A stretch of 64,000 nt of DNA, taken from the NCBI GenBank assembly GCA_024653215.1, contig JANLFU010000001.1, positions 62,001-126,000 on the forward strand. Direction: 5' to 3'. This document shows positions 10,817 to 35,247 of the stretch, piece after piece (within the stretch, counting starts at the first letter, position 1; every line of letters begins with the position of its first letter). Source of the stretch: Candidatus Saccharicenans sp. GTDB lineage: Bacteria > Acidobacteriota > Aminicenantia > Aminicenantales > Saccharicenantaceae. Made by a program: the position numbers and the translations under genes. The notes beneath the pieces were generated by a model. That model ran no database searches, was not told the origin of the DNA, and saw only the letters and a program-made list of their open reading frames with translations.

Positions 10817-12877
10817 TTATTGAGTGGCCAACACCACGTGCTTGATCCGCTGGCGCTTCCAGGTATAGGTGATGTGAACCAGGCTGTCTCGGGTCTGGAT
10901 GACAGCGGGGTAAGAAAATTCAGAACCAGGTTCGTTCTCCAGTTCAAGAACTGTTTTCCAGGTCCTGCCGTCGTGACTTAAAGCCACGGCCAGTCTGTGC
11001 CGGCCATGTTTTAGCGGATTATAAACCAGCAGATGCCTCCCATCCAACAAGGTAAGGGCGTCGATTCCGCTGTCGGGATTGGGAATTTCTGTTGGTTTAA
11101 GCCTGGACCATCTGGCAGGGTTTCCGGGCTCAGACCAGGCTTCCATCAGCACGCCCTGTTTTGACCGGCAGAGTATTTGATACTGGTCCTTTGTATGCCT
11201 CAGGATGGCCGGTTGAATGGCCTGGATGGCCGGCGGCTCGTTGAGAGAAGGGGAGCGGTTCCAGCTTCCAAGGGGGTTATCTGTCCATTCCATATGCACC
11301 TGCCAGCCCGTGTCCTCGGTGCTCGAGCCGCAGAGCAGCGTGCCATCGGCAAGTTCGATGGGCTTGTTTTTAATCGGTCCCAGGAACCCTTCGGGCAGCC
11401 GGTGGGCTATGCTCCAGGTCCGCCCGTCATCCCTGGAAATCTTTACCATTCCCCACCAGGTAGCCGGGCTGGGACCAACCTTGTAGAACAGGAACAGCTC
11501 ACCGTTTCTTCTTCTGAAGAGAACAGGATTCCAGCAGGGGAAGCGCCGGGTAGTCTGTGCTAAACCGGATTCCTTTTTTTCTGAGATTACCTTTCCGACA
11601 TAATCAGCCGGAGGCCTCGCCGCTTCTGGCGTTCCAAGTAAGGCTCCTCGCGCGACTCCAGATTCATTTTTTCCTGCTATCAATTTTTGGCCATCTGGCC
11701 ATGGTTCTCCGGCCTGACCCGGCTTTTCTGAAGTTTTATCATCCATGATTCCGGTGGCCACCTCCACCGGCGCGGACCATTCTTTCCCGTTGAACCGGGC
11801 CATCCATATCCCGACGTCGTTTGCTCCTTCGGCCGAACCGCCAAACCAGGCCGCCAGCAGCCCGTCGTTGGTCTCGGCGATGGTTGAAGCGTGGCAGGAA
11901 GCGAAAGGAGCCTTCTCAAATATGAATTCGCTTCTCAGAATTTTGGCCATGGGCGCGGGCTTGGGTTTATAGACCCTGACATAATCAAATACCACCTCAT
12001 CCGGAAACTGGCTCCGAACCGGGTCGCCACCCCAGCCGGTCAGTTCGGTTGACAGGATGAGGTACTGCGCCCGGCGCGAAACGGCCGTCCTGGTCCTCCA
12101 GGTTTCCTTCCCATCAACGTAGAAGATGTATTCATCCGGCGTCCACTCCAGGCCGAAGGTATGAAAGCCTGTTTCGATGCCGGCCACTGGAATTTCTGCA
12201 CCTTCCTGCCGGTGGTTCTGGCCGTAACCTCCCCAGTGAACGGTGTGGTAGACGAGGCCTGGGGTCCGGCGATGGTACTCGAAGACATCTATTTCGGCAC
12301 CGTTTACTGCCGGCTCGCCGCCCTGGCCCATATCGGGCGATTGCAGCCAGAAGGCCACGTGCGGCCCGAGCTGGCTGTTCATACTGGCCCGGCACTCGAA
12401 GTATCCATAGGTGGTTTCAAATAAGCCCTGGGTTCCAAGCTGGCCCACGTAATATTTGCCATCATCGTCCTTGATGACACTGATGGCCACATGACCGCGG
12501 CCATCGAGCTTTATGGTGCGGCGGGAGACCGTGGCCAGGGCCCTGACTGTGCCCTCGGCCCGAAAATTCCATTTGTCCTGTTCGATCTGTAAACCTTCAA
12601 ACTCATCCTGCCAGACCAGCTCGTAGCCGGACAGGATATGGGCCGGCGTCTGCGTTGAGCGGTCAACCTGCATGAGCTGCGCACAGTTTTTGGGGCCAGT
12701 TCCGCAGCAAATTAAGGCAGGGCTTAAAATGAAAGCCAGGCTGATCCACAGCCCAGAAAGCAGCAATCTTGATGTCCTAATATGTAAGGCCTTTTCGCGG
12801 TTAAAACTTCCCAACCCCCTCTGGAGCATTAAGATATTTTTGTTGAGAAATCTGGCCAGAGTGCTTATGTCATCCAT
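10817..12877 (-). CDS. Exported GH16 glycoside hydrolase fused to a sialidase-like (BNR) domain
   Basis: 686 residues. An N-terminal export signal ends at a possible lipobox (ALIC or LICC near residue 57). Residues ~80-310 are a GH16 jelly roll (laminarinase/agarase clan): YELVWQDEFEG at the start and the catalytic motif EIDVFE near 193-198 with both Glu residues. Residues ~315-686 are a six-bladed sialidase-like propeller: SCHASTIAETNDGLLAAWFGG at the N-terminus and Asp-box-like SRDDGRTW and SHDGRTW. A ~60-residue Gly/Lys/Pro-rich insert near 385-445 is unusual. It probably degrades a beta-glucan or algal-type polysaccharide with a second exo-activity; the exact substrate cannot be read from sequence. 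Confidence 0.87.
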   Translation of the reverse strand: MDDISTLARFLNKNILMLQRGLGSFNREKALHIRTSRLLLSGLWISLAFILSPALICCGTGPKNCAQLMQVDRSTQTPAHILSGYELVWQDEFEGLQIEQDKWNFRAEGTVRALATVSRRTIKLDGRGHVAISVIKDDDGKYYVGQLGTQGLFETTYGYFECRASMNSQLGPHVAFWLQSPDMGQGGEPAVNGAEIDVFEYHRRTPGLVYHTVHWGGYGQNHRQEGAEIPVAGIETGFHTFGLEWTPDEYIFYVDGKETWRTRTAVSRRAQYLILSTELTGWGGDPVRSQFPDEVVFDYVRVYKPKPAPMAKILRSEFIFEKAPFASCHASTIAETNDGLLAAWFGGSAEGANDVGIWMARFNGKEWSAPVEVATGIMDDKTSEKPGQAGEPWPDGQKLIAGKNESGVARGALLGTPEAARPPADYVGKVISEKKESGLAQTTRRFPCWNPVLFRRRNGELFLFYKVGPSPATWWGMVKISRDDGRTWSIAHRLPEGFLGPIKNKPIELADGTLLCGSSTEDTGWQVHMEWTDNPLGSWNRSPSLNEPPAIQAIQPAILRHTKDQYQILCRSKQGVLMEAWSEPGNPARWSRLKPTEIPNPDSGIDALTLLDGRHLLVYNPLKHGRHRLAVALSHDGRTWKTVLELENEPGSEFSYPAVIQTRDSLVHITYTWKRQRIKHVVLATQ

Positions 12878-26054: not shown

Positions 26055-27464
26055 GTGGCAAATATTCTTGTGGTAGAAGATGATTCCTTTGTTTGCGAAT
26101 CATTTCTGAACATTTTCCGTAACTTCGGCCACCAGGGGTTGAGTGCGGGTACCAAGGACCAGGCACTGAAAGTTCTCTCCACCACCGACCTTGACCTTGT
26201 TTTCTGTGACGTCCGGCTGCCCGATGGCTCGGGCCTGGAGTTGTTGCCAGAGATCCAGAAAACCGCCAATCCTCCTGAGGTCATCGTCATTACCGGGTTT
26301 GGCGACCCCGACGAGGCCGAGCTGGCCATAAAGGGCGGGGCCTGGGACTATGTTCAGAAGCCTCTCTCCGTAAACGAGGTCAGGCTGGCCATTGAACGCG
26401 CCCTGCAATACAGGGAAAAAAAGCAGACTTCAGTAAGGAACCTGGCCCTCGACCGGGAGGAGATCATCGGAAACAGCGCCCTTCTTAAACCGTGCCTTGA
26501 TTTTCTGGCCGAGGCCAGCGGCAGCGAGGCCAACGTTCTGATCTCCGGCGAGACGGGAACCGGAAAGGAACTTTTTGCCAGGGCTATCCATCGCAACAGT
26601 CCCAGAGCAGCTTTCAATTTTGTTGTGGTCGATTGCGCGGCGCTGCCGGAAACGCTGGTGGAAAGCACCCTGTTCGGCCACGTTCGTGGAGCCTTTACCG
26701 GGGCCGACCGCGCCAGTGATGGTCTGATCAAGCAGGCGGACAGGGGGACATTGTTTCTCGATGAAGTCGGGGAACTTTCGCTCTCCACCCAGAAAACGTT
26801 CCTCCGGGTCCTGCAGGAGAAAAGGTTTCGACCGGTCGGGGGAAGCCAGGAGGTCGGAAGCGATTTTCGGCTTATCTCAGCTACCAACCGTGACCTCGGT
26901 CAGATGGTCAAGAAGGGAACGTTCCGTGAAGACCTGCTTTTCCGGCTGCGCACCCTGAGTCTTGAATTGCCCCCGCTCCGCCAACTTAAAGATGATCTGA
27001 AGGACCTGGTCATCCATTATACCGCCAGGTTTTGCGACCAGTATCACCTGCCGATGAAGGGTTTTTCTTCAGACTTTATCCCCACTCTTCTCTCCTACGA
27101 CTGGCCCGGAAATGTCCGGGAACTTCTTCAGGCCCTGGAAAAAGCGATTGTCATGGCCCAGGACTCCCCGACACTTTTTCCCAGGCACCTGCCGCAGCAC
27201 ATCCGCATTCACCTGGTCAGAAACTCGGTCGGTCGGAATGGATCCCGGGCTGATGGCTCAGGAAATCAGCTCCCGGCAACCGAGTCCTTGCCGACGCTGG
27301 CCGCCTTCAGGGAAGCGGGTTTAAGGGATTTGGAAAAAGACTACTTAATAAGGCTGGCCAGGGACAGCAGCGGAGATGTGGCCAGGGCCTGCCAGGTCTC
27401 GGGCCTGTCCAGGTCGCGGCTGTACGCCCTGATGAAGAAATACAAGATTTCTTTTGCCCATTGA
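26055..27464 (+). CDS. NtrC-family sigma-54 response regulator
   Basis: 469 residues from GTG 26055. Receiver domain 1-120 with Asp52 in FCDVRLPDGSG and Lys in VQKPLS. AAA+ domain ~140-370: Walker A GETGTGKE, the sigma-54 contact loop GAFTGA (~211-216), Walker B GTLFLDEVGEL, and the arginine-finger region FREDLLFRLRTL. Fis-type helix-turn-helix at the end (DVARACQVSGLSRSRLYALMKKY). It activates sigma-54 promoters from upstream sites when phosphorylated. The adjacent hybrid kinase is the natural partner. Two identical -24/-12-like sites downstream, before that kinase and before the multicopper oxidase, are likely targets. Confidence 0.94.
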   Translation: MANILVVEDDSFVCESFLNIFRNFGHQGLSAGTKDQALKVLSTTDLDLVFCDVRLPDGSGLELLPEIQKTANPPEVIVITGFGDPDEAELAIKGGAWDYVQKPLSVNEVRLAIERALQYREKKQTSVRNLALDREEIIGNSALLKPCLDFLAEASGSEANVLISGETGTGKELFARAIHRNSPRAAFNFVVVDCAALPETLVESTLFGHVRGAFTGADRASDGLIKQADRGTLFLDEVGELSLSTQKTFLRVLQEKRFRPVGGSQEVGSDFRLISATNRDLGQMVKKGTFREDLLFRLRTLSLELPPLRQLKDDLKDLVIHYTARFCDQYHLPMKGFSSDFIPTLLSYDWPGNVRELLQALEKAIVMAQDSPTLFPRHLPQHIRIHLVRNSVGRNGSRADGSGNQLPATESLPTLAAFREAGLRDLEKDYLIRLARDSSGDVARACQVSGLSRSRLYALMKKYKISFAH

Positions 27465-27557
27465 ACCCGGCGGCGGGGCCGTATTAGTTGCAGTATCCAG
27501 AGTGTCAAGAGATCAGGGAGAAGCTTTTCCGGCTTTAGTAAAAAATTCAGACCAGGA

Positions 27558-27588
27558 CTTGACCAGGCCCAGATTACTCCCGGTCAAG
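27558..27588. promoter_or_regulatory. Possible upstream activator site
   Basis: Inverted repeat CTTGACC-N17-GGTCAAG (27558-27564 and 27582-27588), about 85 bases upstream of a sigma-54-like promoter, the distance expected for an enhancer-binding site. No matching dyad was found before the second promoter, so this is weak. Confidence 0.3.
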
Positions 27589-27669
27589 AGTTGGCCAGGC
27601 GGAGATGGGGATGGCACCATGGCCGGGGCCTTCTTTGATTACCAGAGAATACTGGTTCGGGTGCCTGAG

Positions 27670-27687
27670 GTTGGCATGATTCTTGAA
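27670..27687 (+). promoter_or_regulatory. Sigma-54-like -24/-12 promoter before hybrid kinase
   Basis: GTTGGCATGATTCTTGAA. It aligns with TGGCAC-N5-TTGC(A/T), with exact spacing and one change in the -12 element (TTGA). The same 18 bases occur at 31164-31181 before the multicopper oxidase. Confidence 0.65.
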
Positions 27688-27752
27688 TAAAAGTCTTCGG
27701 TAACGAGGTGCTTAAATAACAGGTTAGGAATCGGCCGGTCCCGGGAGGCAAG

Positions 27753-30700
27753 GTGTGGACCATGAGTCAAGCTAATGAATTAACAATTATTCAGGGACAT
27801 TCCGGCCGTCGCCGTGCTATGATTGAAACAGCGGACAGGCACCACGGTATCGATCAAAATGAAAGGGAACTCTCCATGAAAAATCAAGCAAGGCCATCCG
27901 GCATCTCTTCTCTGGGCGAAGTTCCCTGGGGAACACATTTCTGCCAGTTTTACCGGGATAAAAAGGACCTGCTGGACATTCTTGTTCCCTATTTTCGGGC
28001 CGGGCTGAAGAACAATGAGTTTTGCCTGTGGGTCTGTTCCGAGCCGCTCGATGCCGGGGAGGCCAGAAAGGCCCTGGCCAGGGCCGTGCCCGGGTTCGCC
28101 TCTTATGTGAAGAGGGGACAGGTCGAAATCCTGCCTTACACCGAATGGTATCTCAAAGGGGGGCGATTTAATTCCAGTCGAGTGCTCAGAAGCTGGGTGG
28201 ATAAAGTCAACCGGGCCCTGGACCGGGGATTTGAAGGATTGAGGTTGTCCGGAAATACTTTCTGGCTGGAGCGGAAGGACTGGAAACAATTTACCGATTA
28301 CGAGGAAGAGATAAACAGCGTGGTCACACGTTTCAAAATGATCGCACTTTGTACCTATGCCATAGACAGGTGCGGGGTGGACGAGGTCATCGACGTCATC
28401 AACAACCACCAGTCCACGCTGATCCGACGGGGTGGCGCCTGGACCGTGGTGGAGAATTCATCTTATAAGAAGACCCAGGAAGAGCTCCGCCAGACCGAGC
28501 GCCGGTTCAGGGAGGTCTATGAGCAGTCGCCAATTGGTATCGAGCTTTATGATGCGGATGGGAAGCTGGTGGAAGCCAACCCCTCCTGCCTGGAGATCTT
28601 TGGGGTCAGTTCGGTAGACCAGGTCAAGGGATTTCGACTTTTCAAGGACCCGAACCTTTCTCCCGGGGTCAGAAAGCGTCTCAGAAACGGGGAGAGTGTC
28701 CGCTACGAGGCTCCCTTTGACTTCGAGAAAGTAAAGAAACACGGCCTTTACAGGACAAAAAAGTCCGGGATCATCTACCTGGATGTATTGATCACGCCGC
28801 TCGGCCCCAGGGCAAGATCTGGCCATGAGGGCTACATGGTCCAGGTCCAGGATATTACTGAGAGGGAGCAAGCCCGGCTGGCCCGGATGGAAGCCGAAAA
28901 GGTGCTTAACCAGGCTTACGCCGACCTGGAAGATCGGGTGAAGGAGAGGACTGCCGGCCTGGCCAGGGCCAACCGGGAGCTAAAAAGGGAAATAGCCAGG
29001 CGCAAACGACTTCAGGCCGAGGCGGTGGAAAGCGGTAAAATTTTCGAGGGATTGTTTTCTTCAATCATCACCCCGCTGGCCCTGCTCGACCGCGAGTTCA
29101 ACTTCATCCGGGTGAACGAGGCCTACGCCCGGGCCAGCCAGATTCCAGTTTCCGAGTTTCCGGGTCGCAACCACTTTGACCTGTTCCCCAACGAAGAAAA
29201 CCAGTCCATTTTTGAGAACGTCGTGAGGACAAGACAAGCTTACCAGGTCCAGGCCAAGCCCTTCACCTATCCCGGCCACCCCGAGTGGGGCGTGACCTAC
29301 TGGGACTGGTCGCTTTCACCCATCCTGAATGAGAAGGGGGAAGTCCGGTTTCTGGTTCTTTCCCTGAACGATGTCAGCGAGGAAGCCAGGGCCCAGGAAA
29401 GATTGCGCCAGAATGAACAACTGTTGAGAAACGTCCTTGACGTCCTGCCGATAGGTATCTGGACGATTGATGGACAGGGCAGGATAATACATGGCAATCC
29501 TGCCGGCCAGCAAATATGGGGCGGGGCTCGCTATGTCGGCCTGGAGAAGTTTGGAGAATACAGGGGCTGGTGGCTGGATAGCGGGAAGCCAATTGCTCCC
29601 GGGGAATGGGCCGGGGCCAGGGCCATCCAGAAGGGAGAGACCTCGATTAACGAAGAAATCGAAATAGAGACCTTTGACGGGAAGCGCAAGATTATCAGGA
29701 ACTCGGCCATACCCATAAGGAACGCCAGGAACGAGGTCACCAGCGCGGTTATCGTCAACCAGGACATCACGGAAGAGGTCAGGTTGCAGCGGCAGATCCG
29801 GCAGCAACAGAAAATGGAAGCCCTGGGCACCCTGGCCGGGGGCATAGCCCATGATTTCAATAACCTCCTGATGCCAATCATCATCAACGCCGAGATAGAG
29901 CTTCTCAAGACAGAGGCCGGGAGTTCCACCGCTCACTCGCTTCAATTGATTGTAGAAGCTGCCAGGCGGGGAAAAGAGCTGGTCAACCAGATAGTTACCT
30001 ACGCCAGGCAGAAGGAGCAGGAGAGGCGGCCGGTTGAGATCGCCAAGCTGGTTCGCGAAGCGCTGAAATTCCTGAGGGCTTCCGTACCCGAAAATATCCA
30101 GATCCGTGAATCCCTGGTTTTCGGGCCGGTAACCTGCCAGGCTGACCCGACCCAGATCTACCAGGTGGTGATGAATCTCTGCCATAATGCTGCCTATTCC
30201 ATGCGGGAGACCGGGGGGATCATGGACGTCAGCCTCATTCCCTTCGAGCTGCCCGCTGACCCGGCCACGGAGCGTCTCGGTCTGAAGCCCGGTTCTTATG
30301 TCAGGCTCAGCGTAAGCGACACCGGGGAGGGGATGAGCCAGGAGATCATTGAGAGAGTCTTTGACCCCTTTTTCACCACCAAGAAGCCGGGAGAGGGTAC
30401 CGGCCTCGGGCTGTCGGTGGCTCTGGGAATTGTCAAGAGCAGCGGCGGAGCCATAACCGTGACCAGCCAGCCGGGAAAAGGTTCCACTTTCCATGTCTAT
30501 CTCCCCAGGATTGAGGCCGGGACCGAATTCTGCAGCACAGCTAACGAGGCCGTGCCCGGGGGAAAAGAAAGAATATTATTCATCGACGACGAAGACATCC
30601 AGGTGAGAACGGCCATGTCCATGCTGGAATTCCTGGGCTACCGCGTGGTCGGAATGACCAACCCGGAGGAAGCCTTGAAGGAATTCAGAACCCACCCTGA

Positions 30701-30929
30701 AGATTTCGACCTGGTGATGACTGACCAGAATATGCCCCGTCTCACCGGAGAAAAGCTGGCCACCGAAATCCTGAAGATACGTTCGGGCATTCCAGTCATC
30801 CTCTGCACCGGATACAGCGAGCTGGTGAACGAGGAGACAGCCCGGGCCCTGGGCATCAGGGAATTTGTGATGAAGCCCCTGTCACTTCAGGAAATGGCCA
30901 GCACCATTCGCCAGGTGCTGGAAGCCTGA
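27753..30929 (+). CDS. MEDS/PAS hybrid histidine kinase with C-terminal receiver
   Basis: 1058 residues from GTG 27753, behind GGGAGG; ATG 27762 is an alternative. A MEDS domain (~55-245: VPWGTHFCQFYRDKKDL, RGQVEILPYTEWYL, FEGLRLSGNTFWL), known from DcmR-type sensors, comes first. Three PAS-like domains follow (~250-380, 425-550, 555-680), with a coiled coil between the first and second. HisKA with MEALGTLAGGIAHDFNN (His ~698), HATPase_c with GEGTGLGLS, and a receiver with Asp ~989 (LVMTDQNMPRL). No membrane segments, so it is a cytoplasmic sensor. It lies after the sigma-54 activator and behind a sigma-54-like promoter, suggesting feedback in one circuit. Confidence 0.88.
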   Translation: MWTMSQANELTIIQGHSGRRRAMIETADRHHGIDQNERELSMKNQARPSGISSLGEVPWGTHFCQFYRDKKDLLDILVPYFRAGLKNNEFCLWVCSEPLDAGEARKALARAVPGFASYVKRGQVEILPYTEWYLKGGRFNSSRVLRSWVDKVNRALDRGFEGLRLSGNTFWLERKDWKQFTDYEEEINSVVTRFKMIALCTYAIDRCGVDEVIDVINNHQSTLIRRGGAWTVVENSSYKKTQEELRQTERRFREVYEQSPIGIELYDADGKLVEANPSCLEIFGVSSVDQVKGFRLFKDPNLSPGVRKRLRNGESVRYEAPFDFEKVKKHGLYRTKKSGIIYLDVLITPLGPRARSGHEGYMVQVQDITEREQARLARMEAEKVLNQAYADLEDRVKERTAGLARANRELKREIARRKRLQAEAVESGKIFEGLFSSIITPLALLDREFNFIRVNEAYARASQIPVSEFPGRNHFDLFPNEENQSIFENVVRTRQAYQVQAKPFTYPGHPEWGVTYWDWSLSPILNEKGEVRFLVLSLNDVSEEARAQERLRQNEQLLRNVLDVLPIGIWTIDGQGRIIHGNPAGQQIWGGARYVGLEKFGEYRGWWLDSGKPIAPGEWAGARAIQKGETSINEEIEIETFDGKRKIIRNSAIPIRNARNEVTSAVIVNQDITEEVRLQRQIRQQQKMEALGTLAGGIAHDFNNLLMPIIINAEIELLKTEAGSSTAHSLQLIVEAARRGKELVNQIVTYARQKEQERRPVEIAKLVREALKFLRASVPENIQIRESLVFGPVTCQADPTQIYQVVMNLCHNAAYSMRETGGIMDVSLIPFELPADPATERLGLKPGSYVRLSVSDTGEGMSQEIIERVFDPFFTTKKPGEGTGLGLSVALGIVKSSGGAITVTSQPGKGSTFHVYLPRIEAGTEFCSTANEAVPGGKERILFIDDEDIQVRTAMSMLEFLGYRVVGMTNPEEALKEFRTHPEDFDLVMTDQNMPRLTGEKLATEILKIRSGIPVILCTGYSELVNEETARALGIREFVMKPLSLQEMASTIRQVLEA

Positions 30930-31163
30930 GTGAATTAACGGCCGGGTTGTCAGCTGGACCCTCCGGGACCATTAGCTCTGTCTTCCAGTAGACAAAGACC
31001 TTCAATCTCCGCTTTGGCACCATCCTTTTTTGGTTCTATCTTTCTCCTGCCATACAGGACAGCGTCCTGCCCGGCAAGACAAAATCTTCCCGGGATACCT
31101 ATTAGCCGCTGCGGACCGATGCCAGCCAATGGGTGATAGACAGCTTAATTCCAGGCAACTGGA
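30930..31163. other. Leader region upstream of multicopper oxidase promoter
   Basis: About 230 bases with no gene. It is the region where an activator site would be expected; only short dyads such as TGTCT-N6-AGACA are present. Confidence 0.4.
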
Positions 31164-31181
31164 GTTGGCATGATTCTTGAA
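31164..31181 (+). promoter_or_regulatory. Sigma-54-like -24/-12 promoter before multicopper oxidase
   Basis: GTTGGCATGATTCTTGAA, identical over 18 bases to the site at 27670. The -12 element lies about 80 bases before the ATG at 31258. Confidence 0.65.
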
Positions 31182-31257
31182 CCTACTGATTGAAAATTGC
31201 TTGGAAGAGCCCGTGCAGGGCAAGTCCAAAATTTCCAAGTATAAGGAAAGGAGAAGG

Positions 31258-34200
31258 ATGATGAGAAAGAAGCTGGCAATCTTGATTAGCCTGCTGTTTT
31301 TACTGGCCGTGCTTCCCTGGGGAGTCGAAATGGCCCGGGCCAAGCAAACGAAAGGCAAGCCCGGCCCGGCTCAGCAGAGCCGCCTGAAAGCCAAGTTCGA
31401 ACTCAACGCCCAGAGGAAAGCGGCTGCCGTCCGGTTCAAGCAGCTCCGGAGCACCGGGCGGGCGAAGACCGGGACCTTGAAGACAATGGCCACGGCCATG
31501 GCCATGATGGAGCCCGGCGCTTCACCGCATTATTTCGGCCCTTACCCGAACTATGCCAACAGCTCGATGCCCAAAGGCAGCGTGGCCGGCATCGTTGTCG
31601 AGGCTGGAGGAGGGGGCTATTCCAGCCCGGTAGTTACCATCGAAGACCTTTACACTGGAATGACCGGAATCACGCCGGCCACGGCCACGGCCGTGGTTGA
31701 TGCCACCGGGGCCATCTCCGGGATAATGTTGCTGACTCCGGGAGCCGGCTACACCGCACCCGTTGTCACCATCACAGATCCGACCGGGAGCGGGGCCTGG
31801 GCCACGGCCACCATCGGCCCTCCGTTTGTGGGCGGGATCAGAAAATTCGTCGACCCGCTGCCCAGCCTTCCCGTGGCCATTCCGGATACGACCACTTACC
31901 CGGGCTCAGATTATTATGAGATAGAGCTCGGCCAGTTCAGCCAGAAGATGCATTCGGACCTGCCGCCGACCCTGCTTAGGGGCTATAGGCAAACCAACAC
32001 CGTCGGTCCGGCCAGCCAGTTCAATTACATGGCTCCGACCATCGTGGCCCGCCGCGACAGGCCGGTGAGAATCAAGTTCACCAACAGCCTGCCGACCGGT
32101 TCCGGTGGCAACCTTTTCATCCCCGTCGACCCAACAGTGATGGGCGCCGGGATGGGTCCCACCGGTGAGATGTACACCCAGAACCGCGCCGCGGTTCACC
32201 TTCACGGCAATAATACGGTCTGGATCAGCGACGGGACACCGCACCAGTGGATTACGCCGGCGGGAGAGACCACCGCCTACCCAAAGGGTGTCAGCGTCTA
32301 CAACGTCCCCGACATGCCGGACCCCGGCGATGGGTCGATGACCATCTATTACACTAACGCCCACAGCGCCAGGTTGATGTTCTATCATGACCACTCCTAC
32401 GGCATAACCCGGCTCAACGTTTATGCCGGTGAGGCCGCCGGCTACCTGGTGACCGACCAGGTTGAAGAGGACATGATCAACGGGACCAACCTCTCCGGGG
32501 TGAATCCCCTGAATGTCAAGGTCCTGCCAGACCTCGGAATTCCTTTGATCATCCAGGACAAGACATTTGTGGACGCGGCTACCATCCCGTACCAGGACCC
32601 GACCTGGAGCTGGGGCTCGATGCCCGGCATGCCGATGACCGGCGACCTGTGGTATCCCCACGTTTACATGCCCAACCAGAACCCGGACGACCCCAGCGGA
32701 ATGAATGCCTTCGGACGCTGGCATTACGGCCCCTGGTTCTGGCCTCCGACCACCAACATCGCTCACGGGCCTGTGCCGAATCCCTACTATGACCCGATCA
32801 ATGCTCCCTGGGAACCCCGGATGAACCCGGGCGTGCCACACCCATCGATGGCCATGGAGGCCTTCATGGATACGCCCGTTGTCAACGGCATGGCTTATCC
32901 CTATCTCGAAGTCGAACCGAGGGCCTACCGTTTTCGTATTCTTAACGCCGCCGATGACCGGTTTCTTAACCTCCAGCTTTACGTGGCCGATCCGGCAGTA
33001 ACCACGGCCGACGGGAGGACGGGTACCGAGGTGAAGATGGTTCCAGCGGTCTTTACCCCCGGCTTTCCCCCTGGTTGGCCCAAAGATGGAAGGGAAGGGG
33101 GAGTTCCCGACCCGACTATGGCCGGCCCGCCCTTTATCCAGATCGGTACCGAGGGAGGATTCCTGCCGGCACCGGTGGTGCTTCCCATGCAGCCGGTAGA
33201 CTGGAACATGGACCAGACCAACTTTGACATGGGCCTGGTCAATAAAGGAACCCTCATTCTGGGGACGGCCGAAAGGGCAGATGTCATCATTGATTTCTCG
33301 GCCTATGCCGGAAAGACACTGATTCTGTATAACGATTCCCCCGCCCCGTTTCCGGCCCTGGACACGCGTTATGATTATTACACGGGCAATCCGGACCAGA
33401 CGGACGTGGGGGGCACACCAACCACCCAGGCAGGCTATGGACCCAACACCCGCACCATAATGCAGATCCGGGTGGCCAACACCGGGTCAGGCCCGGCCTA
33501 TGACCTGAATGCCCTGAAAGACGTGTTTGCCAAGACGACTGACAAAAACGGCGTGTTCGAAATTTCCCAGGACGAGATCATCGTTCCGGAAGCCCGTTAT
33601 AATTCAGCCTATAACCTGAGTTTCGTTTCTGACCCCTATGTCCGGATTTTCGAGTATACCAAGTCCTTCCAGACAGTTTCCGGCCTGACCGTGCCTGACT
33701 TCCCCCTCCAGCCCAAGGCCATGCAGGACGAAATGGGCGAGACCTTTGACCCCGAGTACGGAAGAATGAGTGCCAATCTAGGTCTCCAGCTTCCATTCAA
33801 CCCTCCAGGTGCCCAGAACTTCATCCTCCTGCCCTACGCCTCGCCTCCCGTTGAAATCATCAAGAACACCGTCTTCGGGACCCAGATCGGAGAAATGGGT
33901 GATGGCACCCAGATCTGGAAGATCACCCATAACGGAGTGGACACGCACACCATTCACGTCCACCTGTTTAATGCCCAGCTCATCAACCGGGTGGCCTGGG
34001 ACAATGCCATCAGGCCGCCCGAGGCCAACGAGCTCGGCTGGAAAGAGACCTTCAGGGTGAATCCCCTGCAGGACACCATCATCGCCCTGAGGCCGATTTT
34101 TCCGGAGGCAGCGCTGCCCTTCGATGTTCCGAACAGCATCCGGCCGATCGACCCGACCATGCCGATAGGCGCTGTTCTGCCGGGAGGTCCCGGTGGATTC

Positions 34201-35247
34201 AAGGATCCGAACGCTAATCCGGTGACCGTCATCAATCGTCTCATCAATTTCGGGTGGGAATACGTCTACCACTGCCATATCCTGGCTCACGAAGAGATGG
34301 ACATGATGCACTCCATGGCCTTTGCCGTGGCCCCGAAAGCCCCGATCAATCTCAAAGGGACAGTTACCGGAAACGGCGCCAACCGGCGGGTGATTTTGAC
34401 CTGGACCGACAATTCACTTAACGAGACCGGTTTTGTCGTCCAGAGAAGCGCCACGAGCGACGGCCCCTGGGCCACGCTGGCCGGCCTGGCTGCCGACGTT
34501 ACTACCTACACTGACCCGATCGGCAATACCAATGCTGCTTACTTCTACCGGGTTTTTGCCACCAACACCGTCGGCGACACCGGCACGCCGGGTTTCCCAA
34601 CACTGACCGTTGAGTCCGGATATGCCGGTCCGATCCCGGTCGGGCAGCAGCAGGTTCAACCGCCGGCGGCTCCGACCAACCTGACGGCCACGCTCCAGGC
34701 CGGGCCTCAGGTCCTGCTGAACTGGACCGATAATGCCAATAATGAAACCGGATTCGTAATCGAACGCCAGGTAGGAGGCGGAGCCTTCGCTGCCCTGATC
34801 ACGGTCGGGCCCAGAAGCGGCACCGGCAGTGTTAGTTACACCGACACCTCGGTGGTTACGGCCACCTCATATGCTTACCGTGTGGCTGCGGTGAATGCGG
34901 CCGGAATGTCGGCTTATTCCAACACGGCCAACGTCAACATTCCCGTGCCTCCGGCTGCACCGACCAATGTCGTTGCCACGGCGCAGAGGGTGGGCAACGG
35001 CCCGAATGACCGGATCACGGTGACCTGGACCGACGTCGCCAATGAAACCGGGTACACGATTGAATATGCTACCAACGCAACTTTTACGGCCAACCTGGTC
35101 ACGGCCACGGTTGGGGCTAACGTCACCACTTTCCAGACAGGGAATCTCGCCCGCAACACCGCCTTCTATGTCAGGATCAGGGCCACCAACGGGGCAGGCC
35201 CCTCGGCCTGGGTGAATGCTTCCCCGTTCCCGATAATTACACCATAA
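31258..35247 (+). CDS. Very large exported multicopper oxidase with C-terminal fibronectin III domains
   Basis: 1329 residues from ATG 31258 behind AAAGGAGAAGG; the frame is open further upstream but has no signal there. Sec signal ~1-33. All four copper motifs are intact: HLHG (~313), YHDHSYG (~376), HTIHVH (~897) and HCHILAHEEMDM (~1004), so type 1 and the type 2/3 trinuclear sites can form. Residues ~125-190 hold an internal repeat (GGGYSSPVVTI / GAGYTAPVVTI). Three fibronectin III domains fill ~1030-1329. CotA-like oxidases of ~500 residues are much shorter. Substrate could be Mn(II), Cu(I) or phenolics. An outer-surface or secreted location is likely. Confidence 0.9.
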   Translation: MMRKKLAILISLLFLLAVLPWGVEMARAKQTKGKPGPAQQSRLKAKFELNAQRKAAAVRFKQLRSTGRAKTGTLKTMATAMAMMEPGASPHYFGPYPNYANSSMPKGSVAGIVVEAGGGGYSSPVVTIEDLYTGMTGITPATATAVVDATGAISGIMLLTPGAGYTAPVVTITDPTGSGAWATATIGPPFVGGIRKFVDPLPSLPVAIPDTTTYPGSDYYEIELGQFSQKMHSDLPPTLLRGYRQTNTVGPASQFNYMAPTIVARRDRPVRIKFTNSLPTGSGGNLFIPVDPTVMGAGMGPTGEMYTQNRAAVHLHGNNTVWISDGTPHQWITPAGETTAYPKGVSVYNVPDMPDPGDGSMTIYYTNAHSARLMFYHDHSYGITRLNVYAGEAAGYLVTDQVEEDMINGTNLSGVNPLNVKVLPDLGIPLIIQDKTFVDAATIPYQDPTWSWGSMPGMPMTGDLWYPHVYMPNQNPDDPSGMNAFGRWHYGPWFWPPTTNIAHGPVPNPYYDPINAPWEPRMNPGVPHPSMAMEAFMDTPVVNGMAYPYLEVEPRAYRFRILNAADDRFLNLQLYVADPAVTTADGRTGTEVKMVPAVFTPGFPPGWPKDGREGGVPDPTMAGPPFIQIGTEGGFLPAPVVLPMQPVDWNMDQTNFDMGLVNKGTLILGTAERADVIIDFSAYAGKTLILYNDSPAPFPALDTRYDYYTGNPDQTDVGGTPTTQAGYGPNTRTIMQIRVANTGSGPAYDLNALKDVFAKTTDKNGVFEISQDEIIVPEARYNSAYNLSFVSDPYVRIFEYTKSFQTVSGLTVPDFPLQPKAMQDEMGETFDPEYGRMSANLGLQLPFNPPGAQNFILLPYASPPVEIIKNTVFGTQIGEMGDGTQIWKITHNGVDTHTIHVHLFNAQLINRVAWDNAIRPPEANELGWKETFRVNPLQDTIIALRPIFPEAALPFDVPNSIRPIDPTMPIGAVLPGGPGGFKDPNANPVTVINRLINFGWEYVYHCHILAHEEMDMMHSMAFAVAPKAPINLKGTVTGNGANRRVILTWTDNSLNETGFVVQRSATSDGPWATLAGLAADVTTYTDPIGNTNAAYFYRVFATNTVGDTGTPGFPTLTVESGYAGPIPVGQQQVQPPAAPTNLTATLQAGPQVLLNWTDNANNETGFVIERQVGGGAFAALITVGPRSGTGSVSYTDTSVVTATSYAYRVAAVNAAGMSAYSNTANVNIPVPPAAPTNVVATAQRVGNGPNDRITVTWTDVANETGYTIEYATNATFTANLVTATVGANVTTFQTGNLARNTAFYVRIRATNGAGPSAWVNASPFPIITP

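Follow-up and report, generated by a model that had tools for sequence, protein, structure and literature searches.

A putative sigma-54 two-component circuit beside a giant multicopper oxidase gene in Candidatus Saccharicenans

What would govern the production of a giant exported multicopper oxidase (MCO) encoded directly behind a sensor kinase and a sigma-54 activator? The question is raised by a 64,000-nucleotide (nt) stretch of a Candidatus Saccharicenans genome (hereafter the window; it lies on contig C11 of a 2.6 Mb genome in 36 contigs that is 91.8% complete), in which an NtrC-type activator, a MEDS/PAS hybrid histidine kinase and an MCO follow one another and the same 18 bases stand 5' of the kinase and 5' of the oxidase. 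An earlier note on this DNA had read the arrangement as a self-contained sigma-54 circuit controlling the oxidase, which our analysis partly supports. We hold it probable, at roughly four chances in five, that the locus encodes a sigma-54-dependent two-component circuit in which the activator drives both the kinase and the exported MCO via two identical promoters, since the two exact sites are unique, rpoN is present, and both the sites and the linkage of the genes are conserved in relatives.

The activator (26055..27464, plus strand, 469 aa) has a receiver with Asp52, an AAA+ domain with Walker motifs (Walker A at residue 165) and a GAFTGA motif that is intact, as the earlier note had said, at residue 212, and a Fis-type helix-turn-helix (HTH), which together identify it as an NtrC-type response regulator. 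The kinase (27753..30929, plus strand, 1058 aa, starting at GTG 27753 or ATG 27762) combines MEDS, PAS, HisKA, HATPase and receiver domains, in agreement with its first description as a MEDS/PAS hybrid, and no membrane-helix-like stretch was seen across its 1058 aa. The oxidase (31258..35247, plus strand) has the reported 1329 aa when counted from ATG 31258, or 1328 from the adjacent in-frame ATG 31261; its N-terminus carries a hydrophobic segment, consistent with the export proposed for it, and four copper-binding motifs (HLHG, HDH, HTIHVH and HCH, at residues 313, 376, 896 and 1004) place it among the MCOs. Its core resembles CotA, bilirubin oxidase and phenoxazinone synthase (PhsA), the best relatives in PDB and NCBIfam, with which it shares the copper-binding motifs; however, it is ~2.5 times longer than these, carries insertions and C-terminal Fn3 domains, and scores 125 bits against a PhsA cut-off of 950 bits. 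Sigma-54 itself, on which the proposal depends, is encoded in the genome by a 511-aa open frame with a Sigma54_DBD match of 209.5 bits, whose RpoN box reads ARRTVAKYR by eye.

The 18-mer GTTGGCATGATTCTTGAA is exact at both places first reported for it, 27670 (kinase) and 31164 (oxidase), and the whole genome holds no other exact copy, which rules out a dispersed repeat. With up to 3 mismatches allowed, the window contains 2 matches (100 shuffles averaged 0.06, and 1 of the 100 reached 2) and the genome 5, 2 of them exact; one of the three inexact matches lies just 5' of a thioesterase-like gene and two are apparently intragenic (by eye). The 18-mers hold the predicted -24/-12 site TTGGCATGATTCTTGAA at 27671..27687 and 31165..31181 (plus strand), from which transcripts would be expected to start at ~27697 and ~31191, respectively. 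The claimed fit to the -24/-12 consensus stands for the spacing, with 10 bases between GG and the G at -12, though not for the base after the -12 G, which is A where the consensus has C. A looser pattern, TTGGCAYGNWTCTTGNW, matches the window genome 4 times at up to one mismatch and, when reversed as a control, 0 times; the matches are the two sites, one position 5' of a lipoprotein-like gene and one that is apparently intragenic (the latter two by eye). No such site was found 5' of the activator gene itself, where the best candidate (25918) has 6 mismatches.

Of the 19 genomes of the genus, 3 encode both the activator and the MCO, and neither was found in the remaining 16, some of which are incomplete (63-94% complete). 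The close relatives G019 and G033, of the same genus, keep both sites. Compared with G033, the window shows 69.4% identity in the activator-kinase gap, where the sole identical run of at least 10 bases is a 30-mer that holds the site, and 91.8% identity in the kinase-oxidase gap, which has several such runs, including a 33-mer that spans the site and a 47-mer that contains TCCTGCCATACAGGACAGCGTCCTG. Activator and MEDS kinase adjoin in G000, G019, G033, G015 and G011. We further assembled 22 other Aminicenantes activator loci from 21 genomes (activators 51-100% identical, many closely related) and 30 distant loci, mostly from Desulfobacterota, 27 of which were long enough to score; a site was here a match within 350 nt 3' of the activator stop, scored relative to windows from other parts of these loci. 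A regular-expression search of 18 activator loci recovered the receiver motif from 12 and GAFTGA from 16. A site lies 3' of the activator in 19 of the 22 Aminicenantes loci, and in 18 of the 22 the match stands at a fraction of at most 0.05 relative to the rest of the locus. This fraction was reached by 7 of the 27 distant loci, 4 of which look like sites (L096, L098, L099, L103); L100, L114 and L121 passed the score without keeping GG with TTG and were not counted. Of the 30 distant loci, 14 encode a kinase domain upstream of the activator and near it, and in some distant loci CheW- or chemoreceptor-like genes were seen by eye 3' of the activator.

Exact matches to TTGGCAYGNWTCTTGNW number 52, in 35 of the 94 genomes scanned in the order, compared with 0 for the reversed control; 14 of the 52 have the canonical TTGC at their end, and 14 have an activator orthologue immediately 5' of them. 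These counts indicate that predicted sigma-54 sites of this shape are a general feature of the order. GG and TTG at fixed spacing are invariant in 28 sites collected by hand, with varying bases in between, and the sites beside the activator are mostly TTGA or TTGG (after the G, the 28 have A in 14, G in 7, C in 5 and T in 2). In G010, sites precede a cupredoxin (PF13473) and a His-rich lipoprotein (the latter by eye), in G015 and likewise in G011 (by eye) a cluster that includes a YtkA-like gene (PF13115), and in G010, G011 and G088 small zinc-ribbon-like proteins that have no Pfam match above the cut-off. The description of the circuit as self-contained is therefore fair for the window genome, with its two strong sites and one weaker candidate, but not for the relatives, which use the activator family and its site for other genes. 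As side observations, zinc-ribbon-like small proteins (CPFCW...CEKWYWAD) recur beside the regulators (L060, L062, L130, L210), often behind a site of their own, and ~120-150-aa receiver-like proteins stand directly 3' of a sigma-54 site at L063, L104, L059, L241 and other activator loci, with no Pfam match above the cut-off in the three members scanned.

The phylum-wide MCO search covered 396 genomes, of which 33 matched, and returned 30 MCO loci, with a usable open reading frame (ORF) in 27 (L235, L238 and L240 gave none). A generic site pattern, in which A or C was permitted after the -12 G (a choice made knowing the window sequence), occurs 5' of the MCO at 0 or 1 mismatch in 4 of the 27 loci (window genome, G033, G175 and G357), and the best candidates of the other 23 have 4-7 mismatches; 3 of these 23 are cut at a contig edge, and the search for an activator beside the 23 extended over at most 1.5 kb of flanking sequence. 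Two members of family f9 in the same class, G175 and G357, encode an activator that is 51-52% identical to that of the window, followed by a site, a small receiver-like gene and a giant MCO with its own predicted sigma-54 site, which in both reads the canonical TTGCT (GC at -12). The G175 MCO is 57.5% identical to the window oxidase across its length, and its site lies 94 nt from the ATG, compared with 93 when counted from the first ATG in the window; the frame of the G357 MCO is broken, with Ns within. In G071 (family f2) a single protein (L210:4374-7013) comprises MEDS, two PAS, GAF, sigma-54 AAA+ and HTH domains, the MEDS part being split by an NN gap, and the contig continues with a zinc-ribbon-like gene and an MCO, with TTGGCATGATTATTGTA as a weaker candidate for a site 347 nt 5' of the latter. 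A further site stands 5' of an MCO in G004, followed by CusB- and CusA-like genes; this case was dropped as an independent one, since its contig (L068, G004:C98) is 99.5-99.7% identical to L180 (G091:C201) from another family, so that one of the two is probably misbinned. By eye, genes for a YtkA-like protein, a 341-aa protein, a ~213-228-aa protein and an FtsX-like permease were seen near the activator in G175 and G015 (recorded under G175/G357 and G015/G011), and among the phylum MCO loci family f33 shows recurrent ~1250-1770-aa open frames with MCO matches and without such sites.

In the circuit that we infer, the cytosolic MEDS/PAS hybrid kinase would sense a small molecule or the redox state and phosphorylate the NtrC-type regulator at Asp52, which would then bind an element upstream and, through its GAFTGA-bearing AAA+ ring, open sigma-54 RNA polymerase at both -24/-12 promoters. 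Activation of the kinase promoter would yield more kinase, a positive feedback, and activation of the oxidase promoter would yield the exported MCO, whose role we tentatively place at the cell surface, in the handling of copper or of some other metal or compound that can be oxidised.

A candidate for the upstream element is the palindrome TCCTGCCATACAGGAC (31045..31060, unstranded), which lies 120 bp 5' of the oxidase site in the 47-base block identical with G033. The palindrome TTCCTGTATACAGGAA is common to 36 gaps, with a log-likelihood of 108 compared with 34-41 in ten dinucleotide shuffles, which were run with fewer restarts; not every gap is independent of the others, and a gap in which no site was found had its end set by hand. 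Clear pairs of it occur 24 bp apart in five distant loci (L104, L105, L109, L111, L122), and in G175 and G357 it lies ~110 bp 5' of the MCO site and scores highest within each 18-kb stretch. Positions were ranked with a matrix made of 18 sites from a motif search confined to the gaps, since a first search had been dominated by the activator coding sequence and a matrix obtained by retraining had shifted towards AT-rich sequence. As an activator-binding element, the window palindrome is suggestive only.

Several observations weigh against the circuit as drawn here. Both window sites read GA at -12 where the consensus has GC, and the window palindrome is weak, its best copy ranking 78th (oxidase) and 222nd (kinase) of 63,985 positions. 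Three of the 22 Aminicenantes activator loci (L130, L131, L135) have no site within 350 nt 3' of the activator stop, and the MCO loci with a clear site, though four in number, represent two lineages. The best candidate site of a close MCO homologue in G087 has 2 mismatches and lies at -153, and an activator was not found in that genome (76% complete) at E 1e-130. In G175, as judged by eye, Glu apparently stands in place of the receiver Asp, and the GAFTGA motif is GSFTGA. Lastly, the kinase frame in G019 (L057) is interrupted by an in-frame stop at residue 290, although activator, oxidase and both sites are kept there. Barring the three activator loci and the G087 homologue, genes and sites are kept together in the relatives, and none of the three findings that the earlier note had named as refuting its reading (a common dispersed repeat, a genome lacking rpoN, relatives with the genes but not the sites) was made.

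With regard to the function of the oxidase, we lean against, but take seriously, the proposal that it makes manganese oxides or oxidises phenolic compounds instead of handling copper. The MEDS domain, going by the title of a 2005 paper of Anantharaman and Aravind, is reportedly a predicted sensor of simple hydrocarbon derivatives, which would suit this proposal, as would an oxidase core most like CotA, bilirubin oxidase and PhsA, given the substrates of these enzymes. It would also accord with MnxR, which, in the portions of the sources available, controls Mn-oxidising MCOs via sigma-54 (PMC11409713, PMC11930936). Copper handling is favoured instead by the relatives, which put such sites 5' of a cupredoxin and of the YtkA-like cluster, and by the site 5' of the MCO-CusB-CusA operon on the possibly misbinned contig. 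With regard to the regulators, the sites could be true sigma-54 promoters for which the MEDS kinase is not the partner, or not the only one, and which another kinase or enhancer-binding protein drives. Searched with the activator, the window genome gives 8 matches at E 1e-60 or better and hence has further enhancer-binding proteins, both sites remain in G019 despite its interrupted kinase, and the gene 5' of the activator in G175 encodes a PAS protein in which no kinase part is evident (by eye); however, activator and MEDS kinase are neighbours in the five genomes named above, and MEDS and the sigma-54 activator are one protein in G071, so we consider this alternative unlikely. That the 18-mer is no sigma-54 promoter but a stretch duplicated recently, or one that some other DNA-binding protein recognises, as the identity across 18 bases and the off-consensus base after the -12 G might suggest, is highly improbable against the invariant GG/TTG spacing of the 28 sites with varying bases between, the differing flanks of the two copies, and the canonical TTGCT at the G175 and G357 MCO sites.

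The two-component circuit may be one instance of something broader. It seems to us nearly an even proposition that an activator family spanning Aminicenantes and Desulfobacterota, with its own site variant and palindrome, took over surface copper oxidases more than once, partly with a MEDS input (in a hybrid kinase or fused to the activator) that would link an exported copper oxidase to a predicted sensor of small organic molecules. For a lineage known largely through metagenomes, the locus offers a concrete, testable regulon with defined putative promoters, and the ligand of the MEDS domain, once learned, would tell the purpose of the giant oxidase. Elsewhere in the window (10817-12877, minus strand), a 686-aa ORF looks by eye like a glycoside hydrolase 16 with a sialidase-like domain.

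The earlier note had called the combination of sigma-54, a MEDS sensor and an MCO unfamiliar. This claim stands for its MEDS part alone, since CorSR and MnxS/MnxR already control MCO genes via sigma-54. CorSR of Myxococcus xanthus is a sigma-54 two-component system for MCO genes (the curA operon) and, according to the part of the source available, shares with the window a kinase and a sigma-54 response regulator encoded beside an MCO, and the several putative sigma-54 promoters and the cupredoxin gene of the curA set are also counted as shared with the present system (PMC3707914). In contrast, the same text predicts CorS to be membrane-bound, with a periplasmic sensor and no MEDS, whereas the window kinase appears cytosolic with MEDS, and describes curA as one nine-gene operon with CopA, whereas the window has two separate putative promoters (PMC3707914); by eye, no cupredoxin or CopA ATPase of the curA set is encoded among the ORFs flanking our three genes. 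In Pseudomonas, MnxS1/MnxS2/MnxR form a sigma-54 two-component pathway needed for MCO-based oxidation, likewise with predicted sigma-54 sites 5' of both MCO genes, mnxG and mcoA, but with two kinases, in a different lineage and, in the available portions of the papers, with no mention of MEDS (PMC11409713, PMC11930936). Among the literature matches listed, as far as their accessible text extends, we found no precedent for MEDS joined to an MCO, and our search found no literature linking Aminicenantes with multicopper oxidases. The novelty lies in the lineage, in the pairing of the promoters and in MEDS as the input: the sigma-54 control of MCOs known from Myxococcus and Pseudomonas would thus also operate in Aminicenantes, with a different sensor.

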